From Microcaldota archaeon (GTDB lineage: Archaea > Micrarchaeota > Micrarchaeia > Micrarchaeales > Micrarchaeaceae), in assembly GCA_021792395.1 (NCBI GenBank), contig JAJYUR010000005.1, positions 1 through 33,320 of the forward strand: a stretch of 33,320 bases of DNA, read 5' to 3'. The position numbers and the translations under genes are program-made. The notes beneath the pieces were generated by a model. The model did not search any database, was not told where the DNA came from, and saw only the letters and a program-made list of their open reading frames with translations. Each line of letters begins with the position of its first letter. The stretch's first letter is position 1. This document shows, one piece after another, positions 13,876 through 24,413 of the stretch.

Positions 13876-14367
13876 CTACTGCGAAGGTATCATGTACACG
13901 CATGAAACGCCTGCGTTTGTCGGGCATGATGACTGTGCGCTTACATTAACCAGGTACGTGCCGGTAGACGTTATGCTTGCAAGGTTTCCGCTTACATTCA
14001 CGGGCGTGTATGCGGTAACATAATCTAGGCCAGCATTGGTTCTAACCTCGAATACTATCTCATGGCCTACAGTATTGTTAAGGCTGCCGACCAGTATATT
14101 CTCGACATCTGGCGGGACGTTCAACAATATCAGCTGCTTAGCAGGGAAGCCTTGGCTTCCGACGGATGTAGCTATGCCTGCCATCTTGCTTGCAGACTGC
14201 TGCGCTTCGGTAGTTGAAAGAGTAGAAGATGACGATGATATTTGTATGAATGCAAGTACGACTATGGGCAGTAGTATTATCAATCCAAAAGACAGCGTTA
14301 TGAGCAATTCAAGGCTTGATTGCGCGGCCTTCCTTTTATGTAATTCATACCTTCCTATTATATCCAT
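13876..14367 (-). CDS. class III signal peptide (type IV pilin-like) protein
   Basis: A 163-residue protein. The N-terminus HKRKAAQSSLELLITLSFGL is a typical archaeal class III/prepilin signal: basic residues, then QSSLE at the head of a hydrophobic helix. Cleavage is expected just before the QSS segment by a prepilin peptidase (PibD/EppA type). The mature part is Ser/Thr-rich with a few Asn-x-Ser/Thr sites and one pair of cysteines near the C-terminus. It probably forms or assists a surface filament. Its ATG overlaps the stop codon of the CBS-HPF gene (TAATG), so the two are co-expressed. Confidence 0.8.
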   Translation of the reverse strand: MDIIGRYELHKRKAAQSSLELLITLSFGLIILLPIVVLAFIQISSSSSTLSTTEAQQSASKMAGIATSVGSQGFPAKQLILLNVPPDVENILVGSLNNTVGHEIVFEVRTNAGLDYVTAYTPVNVSGNLASITSTGTYLVNVSAQSSCPTNAGVSCVYMIPSQ

Positions 14368-15503
14368 TACAATACATCCTTGTAGTGTTCGTAAGCATTC
14401 CTTTTTTCCTTCAGCCTTATTATCTCTTTCTTTAGCTTCTCGAGTGCCTCTGCAAGAGTTCTGTCTAGCAGGAAATCGGTCTCGTGCACCTGCAGCGTGC
14501 CGAAAGACTTCAGCGATGCCCTTATCTTTATTTCGTATTGGTCTGATTTTATAGGCCTTACTCTAATAGATATATAATTTATGTCTGCGCCCCTTATCTT
14601 TTCGGTCTTGCTTAGAAATTCCTTGACAGAGTCGCGCACTTCACCCATATACTGGTATGTCTTTTCATCAAATCCTGACAGCAGTATCCTGTTTTCTTCT
14701 ATCCCTCTCTGCGATATTAGATATTCCAGAATGTCTGAAACGGTCAATATGCCGACCGGGGCATTATGCCTCATAATTATCAGGGAGGATATGCTCCGCT
14801 CTATCATACGCCTGATGGCGTCTTTGATGGATGCATCAGCATTAATCACTACCGGGTCCTTGTTGTATATGCCAGATATTGATATGTTTGATGGGTTGTA
14901 TATATTTTTCCTTATCTCCGGAGCGCGTTCGTTTGTAGATGCATATTTCATCACCATATCGGAATGCGTCAATAATCCGGAAAATTTGCCGTTATCCAGC
15001 ACTACAAGGCGCTTCACCTTGTTCTTTTCCATTGCCGCTTTTGCCTGAGAGAGATTGGCATCAGAGGCTATCGCCAATATCGGCGATGTCATTATGCTGC
15101 CGGCCTGGACATCATTCTCGACCAATGAAAGCGATAGCATCATCTTAAGCAGGGTTGAGCGCTTTATGACGCCCATTATCTTGCCATCAGATACAAATGG
15201 AAGAGCTTTGGCCTGAATCTTGTAGAAATAGGATATCAGGTCGTTTATGCTAGTGCTTTGGAAGACTTTAGGCACCCGCACTGCGAACCTTTCGGCAGAC
15301 ATGTCCTTTGAAATCTTCAAACGCATGCCTGATTTATATATTGCTCTCGTATCTATTACGCCGTAGAACGTCCCCTGCTTATTTATCAGTACAGCTTCGC
15401 TTTTTTGTATAGCCGGAATGACCTTAGTTATAGGCATCCTTGAATCGAAAACAGGAACTTTGGATACGAGCTCTTTTGGTATTGAATCGGATTTGTTTGC
15501 CAT
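14367..15503 (-). CDS. four-CBS protein with C-terminal HPF/S30AE-like domain
   Basis: A 378-residue protein. Four CBS repeats form two Bateman modules (about 12-60, 75-122, 133-187 and 205-262), with signatures such as GVIKRSTLLKMM, GLLTHSDMVMKY and GILTVSDILEYL. The last 105 residues (VRDSVKEFLSKTEKIRGADINY...) have the alternating beta pattern of ribosome hibernation factor/sigma-54-modulation (S30AE) domains; that match is by pattern. CBS pairs bind adenine nucleotides, so a nucleotide-responsive ribosome-silencing protein is a reasonable inference. It starts at ATG 15503, with a TATA sequence about 33 nt upstream shared with the divergent tRNA-Cys gene. The 3' end overlaps the pilin-like gene. 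Confidence 0.8.
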   Translation of the reverse strand: MANKSDSIPKELVSKVPVFDSRMPITKVIPAIQKSEAVLINKQGTFYGVIDTRAIYKSGMRLKISKDMSAERFAVRVPKVFQSTSINDLISYFYKIQAKALPFVSDGKIMGVIKRSTLLKMMLSLSLVENDVQAGSIMTSPILAIASDANLSQAKAAMEKNKVKRLVVLDNGKFSGLLTHSDMVMKYASTNERAPEIRKNIYNPSNISISGIYNKDPVVINADASIKDAIRRMIERSISSLIIMRHNAPVGILTVSDILEYLISQRGIEENRILLSGFDEKTYQYMGEVRDSVKEFLSKTEKIRGADINYISIRVRPIKSDQYEIKIRASLKSFGTLQVHETDFLLDRTLAEALEKLKKEIIRLKEKRNAYEHYKDVL

Positions 15504-15688: not shown

Positions 15689-16123
15689 TCATACATCTAG
15701 GACGACATTGGCTTTAAAGCCGTTTGAAGTCTTTGACACCGATAGCGCATACCTTGACACTCCCTTTATATCAAGCTTCGAAACTTCAGGGTATTTATGC
15801 CTGCTTATAAGGGATGCTTCGAATGAGAATCCAGATGTGCGCTTGCGCACATCCACCTCTTCAGCCATATATGTATATACCCCTTTTGCATCGCTCAAGG
15901 AAAGTATGTCCTGAAGGAAGTACCACAGCAACGTCTCTATCGAAGGCGCTTTGTCCTTCACCTTGAGCCGTATTTTTTTACCAGCAGTTTTGGAAAGTAC
16001 ATCAGTATCGGCATTGACTCCGGACATTGCAAGAAGCGCATTTGAAAAAAGTTCCGGCAAGGTGCGCCCATATGCTACGAATTCCACGTCAGCGGTATGA
16101 TTCTTATATATGTATCTTCTCAT
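15689..16123 (-). CDS. archease, RtcB ligase cofactor
   Basis: A 144-residue protein of normal archease length. Signatures are NHTADVEFVAYGRTLPELFSNA at the N-terminus, IETLLWYFLQDILSL in the middle and the C-terminal strand GFKANVVLDV. Archease activates the RNA ligase RtcB, which joins tRNA halves after intron removal. It sits 28 bp from the interrupted tRNA-Cys, convergent with it, which fits functionally but may be coincidence. The acidic metal-binding residues expected near the N-terminus (Asp in HTADVEF) and C-terminus (final LDV) are visible. No RtcB gene is in the window. Confidence 0.92.
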   Translation of the reverse strand: MRRYIYKNHTADVEFVAYGRTLPELFSNALLAMSGVNADTDVLSKTAGKKIRLKVKDKAPSIETLLWYFLQDILSLSDAKGVYTYMAEEVDVRKRTSGFSFEASLISRHKYPEVSKLDIKGVSRYALSVSKTSNGFKANVVLDV

Positions 16124-16223
16124 ATGTTCGTCACATTGCTTAATTAATATAAAACCAAAAATTATATAATTGAAATGATAATAAACTATGTCCTGTGAAG
16201 AGAAGAGTAACTACTGAATTGTG

Positions 16224-17825
16224 ATGATGCCCATTTCGGCTGAGGACATTGGTGTTTGTGTGGTCTTATTTGGTTCTTATAGGCTGAGGGTTGTCGGCAT
16301 ATCGGCACTACTGGCCGGGTTCATATTAGCTGCAATGAACTCGATACGCATAACAGGGCTAAGCGTATCAGATTCAGATCCCTCTACATACATAATCGTA
16401 GTAATGCTAATGCTGCTTGTAGCAATAGTGCTATCGGTAAAATATGCCCCAGATCCTGAGCTGAAGAAATCTAATGTGGCCATTGGGCTGTCGCTTCTGG
16501 CAATCTATGTGCTTGCCATCTCATATGCAAGAGGCGCGATGTCTTTCCTTTTTATTTCTTACAGGATAGATGCATTGCTGTTTCCAATAATCCTAGCATC
16601 GCTCATAATACTTATATTTGGGATAAAAGGGCTTAAACGCATGAAGTTCCTTGTCATATACTCCATTTTTGCATCGCCTTTGCTTCTGCTCCCTACCTTC
16701 CAGATAAGCTCGCCATTTACGGCATTCAATGCCTATGTAGTTTTTGACACGCTTAAAGCGATAGGCATCCCGGTCCTGAAAAGCAATCTCACCATAATAG
16801 CACCATCTTCGGCGCAGATATCCATAGCGCAGACATGCGCAGACATAGGTGCATTCATAGCGCTTATCATGTTCCTGCTGCCAATAGCATATTTTTATTC
16901 AGGAAAAATAACCAGCAAGATCAAATGGATAGTATCAGGGGTTGCACTTATGCTCCTGCTTAATGTGCTTAGGATGTTCAGCATAGCCATAGTATGGGCA
17001 TATTATGGCATAGGAGCTGCAGTTGGCACCATACACGTGTTCATCGGAGAGGTGCTCTTTGACATAGCCATAGTGGTAATGATATTGATATCTGGCAGAT
17101 ATGGGCTTAGGATACGCGTTGGCACAGGAAAGCACAGCAAAAATACTGCAAGAGCCCATCGTGCATATAAGGAGAGGAATAATGCAAACCCTGGGCACAT
17201 CGCGATGGCTGTATTCGTGCTTGCAGTAGCCTTTGGTTCCATAGCCTATTATGCAGCAAGCCCATATATCAGGCTTGCAGACGCACCTATATCTAACTTC
17301 ACCCCCAGTGTGAATATTTCCAATTTCACCGCAAGCGTAAGCCTGATAAGACAATTAGAGGCAGGCAGGGGCAACATAACGGTCGTTGGAAGCGGGAGGG
17401 ATGCAGTAGTGGCGGCAGTGCATATGAATAGCAGCCTGAATGGAAGCACATATGTAGTAATAGGAAAGGCTTATCCATATGCGAACAATAGCATCATGCA
17501 GGAATTTACCGGCAATTCCACACGCTACTCCGGAATGCATGCGCTGATATTAAAAAATGGCGTGGTGGTACATGCGCTTGAAGGCATATCCAATGGCAGC
17601 CTATTCTATGTAAATTATTTTTCATTGCCATATTTCACTGGGGGCAGATACATAACCCTGAGCTACGAAATCATATCAAATGATACGGCAGCGTATGGCA
17701 GATGCATGGGCAATGATGATGGAGCGGATTACCTTGAATCGGCATTGTATGATTATGAGGCGGGTTATTTCGGAGACCCTTATAAATATGTTTTGTGCCC
17801 TTCATATCTCATAGCATCGGGATGA
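16224..17825 (+). CDS. archaeosortase/exosortase-family protein with extra C-terminal domain
   Basis: A 533-residue polytopic membrane protein. The first 290 residues carry about eight transmembrane helices and the exosortase/archaeosortase triad: Cys205 (SIAQTCADIGAF), Arg250 (NVLRMFS) and His271 (GTIHVFIGEVLFD). After a basic cytosolic loop comes another transmembrane segment (about 325-345) and an outward domain of about 190 residues with many N-glycosylation sites. Its position and size recall the EpsI-like domain found fused to some exosortases; this link is inference. Archaeosortases cut C-terminal sorting tails and attach surface proteins to lipid. Start uncertain among GTG 16221, ATG 16224 and ATG 16227. 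Confidence 0.85.
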   Translation: MMPISAEDIGVCVVLFGSYRLRVVGISALLAGFILAAMNSIRITGLSVSDSDPSTYIIVVMLMLLVAIVLSVKYAPDPELKKSNVAIGLSLLAIYVLAISYARGAMSFLFISYRIDALLFPIILASLIILIFGIKGLKRMKFLVIYSIFASPLLLLPTFQISSPFTAFNAYVVFDTLKAIGIPVLKSNLTIIAPSSAQISIAQTCADIGAFIALIMFLLPIAYFYSGKITSKIKWIVSGVALMLLLNVLRMFSIAIVWAYYGIGAAVGTIHVFIGEVLFDIAIVVMILISGRYGLRIRVGTGKHSKNTARAHRAYKERNNANPGHIAMAVFVLAVAFGSIAYYAASPYIRLADAPISNFTPSVNISNFTASVSLIRQLEAGRGNITVVGSGRDAVVAAVHMNSSLNGSTYVVIGKAYPYANNSIMQEFTGNSTRYSGMHALILKNGVVVHALEGISNGSLFYVNYFSLPYFTGGRYITLSYEIISNDTAAYGRCMGNDDGADYLESALYDYEAGYFGDPYKYVLCPSYLIASG

Positions 17826-17847: not shown

Positions 17848-18828
17848 ATGAAGTTCGAATTTAGCGCAGGCATAATAGTATATGCAGATATGGATGGTGA
17901 ACGTAAGTTTTTATTCCTGAAAAATCCGCATGGTTGGTGGGACCTGCCGAAAGGGCACATAGAAAAGGGGGAGAATGCCATCAAGGCCGCGCTAAGGGAA
18001 ACAAAGGAGGAGGCCAACCTGGTATTGAAGCCATATAGATCGTTCGTTTACAGTGAAGACTACTGGTTCATCAGCGCTGGCGAAAAAATAAAGAAGAATG
18101 TCAAGATGTTCATAGCAAAAGCGGACAACGTGGGGGATGTGAGGATATCCGAAGAGCATAGCGGATACGCGTGGATGTCTTATAAAGTGGCACTGAATGA
18201 GCTTAGGTATAAGACGCAGAAGCAGATGATATCTTCTGCGAACAGCTATATATCGCGATTAGAAAAAATCGATGCGATTAATGCAGAATATGCCAATCTG
18301 CCGAATATTGCGGCAGACTGGAAGCTCAGCCGAAGATTCGTCCCGGGGGAAGGCAGATTGAACGCAAAGGTGATGTTCATAGGGCAGGCGCCCGGGGCAG
18401 AGGAGGATATGAAGCTTAGGCCATTCATAGGCAGAAGTGGGAAGCTGCTAGACAGGCTGATTAAGTCCGCAGGGCTTGTAAGAAGGAATGTTTACATAAC
18501 CAGCGTGGTCCAGTTTTTCCCGCCTGAAAACAGGGTGCCTACTGACGATGAGATAGCACTATGCAAACCATTTTTGGATAGGCAGATCGCAGAGATAAAT
18601 CCAGAAATAATAGTTTTGCTCGGGTCGGTAGCTGCAAAGGTGGTAGTCGGGCTGGACGGCATCAAGTCAATACACGGGAGAGTGATATCTGGCAAGCCTA
18701 CTTATCTCGTCACTTTGCACCCTGCAGCTGCAGTCAGGATAAAATCCAATATGCCGCTTATAGAAGCGGATTTCAAGATTCTAAAATCCCTTTTAAAAAA
18801 TAGAAAAAGGTTTGGAACCCGCCAGTAG
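17848..18828 (+). CDS. Nudix hydrolase-uracil-DNA glycosylase (family 4-like) fusion
   Basis: A 326-residue two-domain protein. Residues 1-140 are Nudix: WDLPKGHIEKGEN followed by REtxEE (Gly36, Glu42, Arg50, Glu51, Glu54, Glu55), most like Ap4A-hydrolase-type members. The usual final Gly of the box is Asn57. Residues 150-320 match family 4 UDG: PGEG (166-169), motif 1 GQAPGAEED (179-187), RPFIGRSGKLLD, PPENRVPTDDEI and motif 2 HPAAAV (291-296). Family 4 enzymes hold a 4Fe-4S cluster with four cysteines. Here only Cys239 remains; the CxxC region reads NIAADWKLSRR and the third position is Phe223. It follows the archaeosortase gene closely and ends at a terminator hairpin. Confidence 0.88.
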   Translation: MKFEFSAGIIVYADMDGERKFLFLKNPHGWWDLPKGHIEKGENAIKAALRETKEEANLVLKPYRSFVYSEDYWFISAGEKIKKNVKMFIAKADNVGDVRISEEHSGYAWMSYKVALNELRYKTQKQMISSANSYISRLEKIDAINAEYANLPNIAADWKLSRRFVPGEGRLNAKVMFIGQAPGAEEDMKLRPFIGRSGKLLDRLIKSAGLVRRNVYITSVVQFFPPENRVPTDDEIALCKPFLDRQIAEINPEIIVLLGSVAAKVVVGLDGIKSIHGRVISGKPTYLVTLHPAAAVRIKSNMPLIEADFKILKSLLKNRKRFGTRQ

Positions 18829-23537: not shown

Positions 23538-24413
23538 ATGGTTTATGATGAAATATTCGCAAGCAGGATAAAAGTTGCTGATTTCAGCCTTAGGCATACA
23601 TTTGAAAGCGCGCAGCCGTTGACGTTCTACGGCCATTATAACAATGCCAGCAATACGCTCACATATGCGGACGGGCAGCATATGCTTAATGTAGGCTTTG
23701 AAGGGAACGCAGAAAGCGGGCAGATTGTAGTTGCAAGCAGGTATGCCAATGCGATTGAAGACGTCAAAAAGAGGTTCAGATTGGAGGACGACATGAATGG
23801 TATGTATGCATCAGTATCGACTGACGCGTTTATGAGGAAGGCCATAGGCAAATACCGCGGCATGCGCGTAACGCTTAATGACCCGTGGGAGACTACAGTA
23901 TGCTTCATAATTTCACAATTCAATAACGTAAAGAGGATACGCGGGATCGTACTTAAATTGATTGGAACTTTTGGCTCTGACATAAAGGACGATAATGATA
24001 GGGTTATAGGCAGATCATTCCCGAAGAGCGCAGACTTGCTCAACGTTACGGAATCTGATTTTAAAAAGATAGGTGCGGGATTCAGGGCCAGATATTTAGC
24101 AGAAGCGGCGCAGTACTGCACGCATAACCTTGATCTGTACAAACTGGATCCTAATGATTACGAAGGCCTTAAATCTGAGCTGACAGGAATAACAGGAGTA
24201 GGGGATAAGGTCGCAGATTGCATAGCTTTAATGGGATATGGCAATATGCATGCTTTCCCGATAGATGTCTGGGTAAAGAGGACGCTTGAAAAATTTTATT
24301 TCAAGGGCAGGAAAAAATCAGTTAAGGAATTGCATGCTTTTGCGGAAAAAAAATGGGGTAGATATGCAGGCTTTGCGCAGCAATATCTTTTTTATCAGGG
24401 CATGAATATATAA
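23538..24413 (+). CDS. ogg1: Ogg1-type 8-oxoguanine DNA glycosylase/AP lyase
   Basis: A 291-residue protein of the HhH-GPD superfamily. The motif GITGVGDKVADCIALMGYGN (217-236) with Lys224, followed by HAFPIDVWV with Asp243, gives the lysine nucleophile and catalytic aspartate of human OGG1-like enzymes. The N-terminal TBP-like beta domain (about 1-95) is present, so it belongs to the long OGG1 branch rather than the short archaeal AGOG. It removes 8-oxoguanine and nicks the strand. Its ATG follows the glyS stop with no gap, so it is translated from the same mRNA. Confidence 0.9.
   Translation: MVYDEIFASRIKVADFSLRHTFESAQPLTFYGHYNNASNTLTYADGQHMLNVGFEGNAESGQIVVASRYANAIEDVKKRFRLEDDMNGMYASVSTDAFMRKAIGKYRGMRVTLNDPWETTVCFIISQFNNVKRIRGIVLKLIGTFGSDIKDDNDRVIGRSFPKSADLLNVTESDFKKIGAGFRARYLAEAAQYCTHNLDLYKLDPNDYEGLKSELTGITGVGDKVADCIALMGYGNMHAFPIDVWVKRTLEKFYFKGRKKSVKELHAFAEKKWGRYAGFAQQYLFYQGMNI

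Follow-up and report, generated by a model that had tools for sequence, protein, structure and literature searches.

A Nudix domain fused to a uracil-DNA glycosylase that has lost Fe-S cluster ligands in one order of Micrarchaeota

The Fe-S clusters of DNA glycosylases are held to be structural elements, or redox sensors that serve the signalling of repair enzymes along DNA. Among the family 4 uracil-DNA glycosylases (UDGa), the Thermus enzyme has a uracil pocket formed by E41, G42, E47, F54, N80 and H155, with N89 positioning the water (PMC5387724). In this enzyme, the substitution E41Q lowers k2/Km about 890-fold, a loss that is mostly rescued by G42D, and N80A lowers it about 40-fold (PMC5387724). 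UdgX, an offshoot of family 4, has an equivalent glutamate, E52, which activates the nucleophile; its H109S/E52N mutant is about 75-fold weaker than H109S (PMC10359453). Among Nudix proteins, ApnA hydrolases have a specificity tyrosine downstream of the Nudix box (PMC5389931).

MutY provides a known case of a DNA glycosylase that carries a Nudix-fold domain: it is an HhH glycosylase whose MutT-like C-terminal domain recognises 8-oxoG (PMC9266487). The archaeal protein described here shares this general plan, but it belongs to a different glycosylase superfamily, has the opposite domain order, and retains intact catalytic residues in its Nudix domain. Text searches of open-access papers gave no earlier description of a Nudix-UDG fusion.

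Architecture and family placement

The fusion is encoded at 17848-18828 on the + strand of our window, a stretch of 33,320 nucleotides from contig JAJYUR010000005.1 of a Microcaldota archaeon (assembly GCA_021792395.1). Its open reading frame begins with ATG and encodes 326 amino acids, and all of the features located within it below are on the same strand. An AF2 model of the fusion (39 sequences) has a mean pLDDT of 95.4 and a pTM of 0.91. DSSP assignments on this model define a long helix (aa 122-149; 18211..18294) that links both domains. Purifying selection acts on both halves. Relative to two congeners, dN/dS is 0.055 and 0.070 for the whole fusion, 0.080 and 0.086 for the UDG half, and 0.025 and 0.045 for the Nudix half. 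An earlier note on this DNA had described a family 4-like UDG joined to a Nudix domain resembling Ap4A hydrolases, and profile, sequence and structure matches all bear this out.

The N-terminal Nudix domain (aa 7-126; 17866..18225) matches the Pfam NUDIX profile PF00293 at 56 bits (cut-off 21.1). Its best solved relatives in phmmer searches are the Ap4A hydrolases 1kt9/1ktg, 3i7u and 3u53, and Foldseek aligned the modelled half with 1ktg (TMt 0.86) and 3i7u (TMt 0.88). The Nudix box, GHIEKGENAIKAALRETKEEANL (aa 36-58; 17953..18021), follows the consensus GX5EX7REUXEEXGU. Only its late G deviates in the window protein, and this glycine is present in most relatives. Residues G36, E42, R50, E51, E54 and E55 of the box are invariant in both of our alignments. 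A candidate for the Ap4A specificity tyrosine is Y72, which is at least 90% conserved but comes out shifted by one to three residues when the fusion is aligned pairwise with 1kt9 and 3u53. In its top sequence and structure matches and its full Nudix box, this half resembles the asymmetrical Ap4A hydrolases of the NUDT2 type (1ktg, 3i7u, 3u53), and it appears to be a hydrolase of the dinucleoside-polyphosphate (Ap4A) type with intact catalytic residues. Unlike those enzymes, it is fused to a DNA glycosylase.

The remainder of the protein is a family-4-type UDG domain (aa 159-317; 18322..18798), as placed by TIGR00758 and Foldseek. The Pfam UDG profile (PF03167) covers aa 166-301 at 117 bits (cut-off 24.3), and the NCBIfam profile TIGR00758 (UDG_fam4) scores 154.9 bits, above its cut-off of 125.3. 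Scores lie below the cut-offs of the archaeal equivalog NF040953 (152.9 bits, cut-off 250) and the UdgX profile TIGR03914 (102.2 bits, cut-off 189.95). The closest solved relatives are the family 4 UDGs 4zbx, 1l9g, 1vk2 and 1ui0, and the modelled half matches 1l9g and 1ui1 at a TMt of 0.84 each. With the UDGa enzymes of Thermus (1ui0/1ui1), Thermotoga (TM0511; 1l9g/1vk2) and Sulfolobus (4zbx), the fusion shares its fold (TMt 0.81-0.84), motif B (HPAAxxR), and the equivalents of E47, F54, N89 and H155. It differs from them in lacking three of the four [4Fe-4S] ligands, in reading GQAPG for GE(A/G)PG, in its N-terminal Nudix domain, and, for most members, in carrying S at N80. Profile and fold make the UDG half a derivative of family 4, yet its missing cluster ligands and altered motif A set it outside the family as defined. 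Motif A is altered in UdgX as well, but UdgX has its own Fe-S cluster, GEQPG, and a KRRIH loop with the nucleophilic H109, none of which occurs in the fusion (GQAPG, PPENR). H276 was considered as a new catalytic residue akin to UdgX H109 and was dropped, as several cluster-bearing relatives have H there.

Cluster ligands and the uracil pocket

Canonical relatives from the same class possess the CxxC motif, VVKC and the fourth cysteine. In the fusion, the sole cysteine among 326 residues is C239 (18562..18564), at the fourth ligand position. The VVKC cysteine, which is the third ligand, is replaced by F223, and the former CxxC site (P152 to W158; 18301..18321) is free of cysteine. An ungapped count back from the shared VPGEG assigns P152 and A155 to the CxxC cysteines, an assignment that is approximate given the differing N-terminal loop length among relatives; the region is Cys-free regardless. 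W158 was dropped as a replacement of the second Fe-S cysteine because it aligns with the conserved aromatic that follows CxxCxL in canonical enzymes.

Ligand loss is invariant across the 60 fused proteins tested. At the F223 column, 59 proteins have F and one has I; about 16 different residues, none of them cysteine, occur at the A155 column; and C239 is conserved as cysteine in 57. Further, neither the A155 nor the F223 column has a cysteine in any of the 68 fused or half proteins checked, and the aligned fused proteins contain no alternative conserved set of cysteines. The earlier note's claim that three of the four cluster cysteines are replaced, in a protein with one cysteine overall, therefore stands. 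An alignment placing cysteines elsewhere, which it had named as a refutation, did not emerge, and the loss is common to close relatives. We infer that the protein folds without a [4Fe-4S] cluster.

The cluster has also disappeared from three stand-alone relatives (L141, L094 and L033), which indicates that its loss is independent of fusion. Of these, L141 (genome G216) is a UDG from another family of the class that has no CxxC and reads VVKW, apparently a separate cluster loss. A general loss of Fe-S biogenesis can be rejected, since the window genome encodes SufBD-type proteins, five radical SAM proteins, and two Nth-type HhH-GPD glycosylases with intact CX6CX2CX5C Fe-S loops. Cluster loss is consequently specific to the fusion protein.

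Three motifs hold counterparts of Thermus pocket residues. In motif A, GQAPG (aa 179-183; 18382..18396), Q180 stands where the Thermus enzyme has E41 (PMC5387724). The segment SVVQFFPPENR (aa 219-229; 18502..18534) carries S219 at the N80 position, F223 at that of the third Fe-S cysteine, and N228 at N89. Motif B, HPAAAVR (aa 291-297; 18718..18738), supplies H291, the invariant equivalent of H155. Across the 60 fused proteins, Q occupies the E41 position in 58, A the G42 position in 59, and S the N80 position in 57, with N in the other three. H291, E186 and F193 (equivalent to H155, E47 and F54) are present in all 60, and N228 in 59. By analogy with the effects of E41Q and N80A in Thermus, uracil excision by the fusion could be weak, or its substrate different.

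The same pocket changes occur in two bacterial stand-alone UDGs, L091 (Nealsonbacteria) and L092 (Oleimmundimicrobium). Both have GQAPG, with Q at E41 and S or G at N80, yet retain all four Fe-S cysteines and have no Nudix domain. The pocket change is thus not a by-product of cluster loss, and it may be the older of the two. N80S alone is also found in L143, L151 and L153.

Distribution, neighbourhood and separability

We surveyed 295 genomes of the phylum. Full-length fusions are present in 112 of about 161 genomes from families f1 and f2, which make up the window's order, and absent from the roughly 134 surveyed genomes that belong to other families of the class. Named carriers comprise MAGs of Ca. 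Micrarchaeota and NZ_CP060530, the complete chromosome of Ca. Micrarchaeum sp. A_DKE. In the tree, the UDG halves group as a single clade, with 100/100 support in a rough bootstrap, and the nearest sampled lineage comprises the Cys-bearing stand-alone L091 and L092, together with L142. Proteins with the UDG half only nest within the fused clade, indicating that their Nudix domain was lost later.

Two members stand apart. L038, the fusion of genome G026, has a UDG half that has lost several motifs (N89, QFF and the fourth cysteine), a possible case of decay in one genus. L061 is a full-length fusion in a Thermoplasmata-titled MAG where the usual neighbours are absent; either the bin is mislabelled or the gene was transferred to a lineage that may include hosts.

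In the window, the fusion is preceded by an archaeosortase/exosortase-like gene (16221..17825, + strand; PF09721, 80.5 bits), whose stop ends 22 nt before the fusion ATG, and by an archease gene on the opposite strand (15689..16123, - strand; PF01951). The archease gene lies beside the fusion in 35 of 41 loci and the archaeosortase-like gene in 33 of 41; the three-gene block is mostly conserved. The archaeosortase/exosortase-like product is a membrane protein. The window also encodes, at 14367-15503, a protein with three CBS stretches whose C-terminus weakly resembles S30AE (20.9 bits, under the cut-off).

Some lineages have kept one half of the fusion at this locus. Genomes G011 and G034 have the archease gene, the archaeosortase gene and the Nudix half alone, and G012 has the same two neighbours with an intact UDG half and a short N-terminal remnant. 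At the genus level, g10 has deleted the UDG half and kept the Nudix half, and g11 has kept the UDG half without the Nudix domain. Each half has thus been deleted in place, and the two are separable. A different PF03167 UDG is encoded elsewhere in G011 and G034, as in genus g10, and genus g28, which has no fusion, carries a family 5 UDGb instead. The other UDGs of g10 and g28 show the pattern expected of non-orthologous replacement. Such replacement of a lost UDG half fits a real glycosylase role. It is not seen throughout: several lineages of the order lack PF03167 proteins altogether, showing that UDG activity is not indispensable.

Repair background and possible functions

The window genome is a draft of 44 contigs, 88.7% complete. 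Neither this draft nor either congener contains a second PF03167 UDG, so that the canonical enzyme which, according to the earlier note, would reduce the fusion to a relic was not found in any of the three. Many relatives have a second, distant PF03167 protein (L039-L044 and L047) of about 180 aa, which is MUG/TDG-like and carries a GINPH..GS motif. An EndoQ-like protein, scoring below its family cut-off, occurs nearly everywhere in the order. The window genome has it too, and there it could take care of deaminated bases. We rejected EndoQ as the replacement of UDG where the latter is missing, as there is no simple complementarity; the near-universal EndoQ-like protein is absent in G011 and G034.

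The PF00692 dUTPase profile has no match in the window draft genome, an absence best read as draft incompleteness. Matches occur in both congeners and in 244 of the 295 phylum genomes; most are weak and about 180-200 aa long, as expected for Dcd-type proteins. These genes led us to reject the Nudix half as a substitute for a missing dUTPase. The coupled cleaning of a dUTP-like pool, as the earlier note had imagined, likewise finds no support: the Nudix domain is of the Ap4A type, dUTPase/Dcd-type genes are common, and the halves are found apart at the same locus.

We consider it fairly likely that the fusion is a housekeeping protein with two functions, pairing an Ap4A-type hydrolase with a cluster-free UDG that probably excises uracil or deaminated bases. 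Both activities and their substrates are predictions from sequence. A possible, though distinctly less probable, alternative is that the altered E41Q/N80S pocket excises another base, such as a deaminated purine or a 5-substituted uracil, and that the Nudix half hydrolyses the matching nucleotide. The prevalence of Q180 (58/60) and S219 (57/60) suggests such a shift, as both line the uracil pocket and the corresponding Thermus mutants lose activity (PMC5387724). However, the canonical N is tolerated at the S219 position in three of 60 fused proteins, the changes recur in the Cys-intact stand-alone L091 and L092 and so are not tied to fusion, and the two halves are separable. Rather doubtful, too, is repair of pool and DNA by one protein, in which a cluster-free UDG of new specificity would be paired with a Nudix domain that breaks down either the corresponding damaged nucleotide or an alarmone linked to repair.

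The Nudix half might instead lack catalysis and serve the glycosylase in recognition or targeting, for which MutY offers a precedent in its 8-oxoG-recognising domain (PMC9266487) and the model a well-defined predicted domain arrangement (pTM 0.91). We regard this as improbable, because every aligned fusion preserves the Nudix catalytic residues, unlike a binding-only domain, and because g10 keeps the Nudix half after UDG loss whereas g11 keeps the UDG half without it. Decay of the UDG half into a functionless relic would accord with the degraded motifs of L038 and with lineages devoid of any PF03167 protein, but a UDG-half dN/dS of 0.08, catalytic residues that are invariant across about 40 genera, and the intact UDG half that G012 holds after Nudix deletion make it very improbable. 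An assembly or gene-calling artefact, which a window from a 44-contig draft genome might suggest, has a negligible chance of being correct; absence of the fusion from all relatives, which the earlier note would have read as assembly error, is contradicted by 112 genomes, including the complete chromosome NZ_CP060530.

In the bifunctional housekeeping protein that we favour, fusion would have occurred once, in the ancestor of one Micrarchaeota order. The UDG half would keep its fold by ordinary packing, with F223 at a ligand position, and would flip out uracil or another deaminated base into a pocket altered at Q180 and S219. There, H291 would steady the leaving base, with N228 and E186 positioning the water. 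The Nudix half would hydrolyse a dinucleoside polyphosphate. The two halves probably act independently of each other, and their fusion would serve co-expression, not substrate channelling.

A glycosylase that has shed its cluster ligands across an order, in a genome whose Nth-type enzymes keep theirs, represents a natural test of the cluster's role. The cluster-bearing L091 and L143 and their cluster-free orthologues provide a natural pair for this question. Further, Q at E41 is natural here and nearly abolishes activity when introduced alone into the Thermus enzyme, so the fusion offers a way to learn how catalysis in family 4 accommodates this substitution. An OGG1-type 8-oxoguanine glycosylase without an Fe-S loop (OGG_N + HhH-GPD) is also encoded in the window, at 23538-24410.
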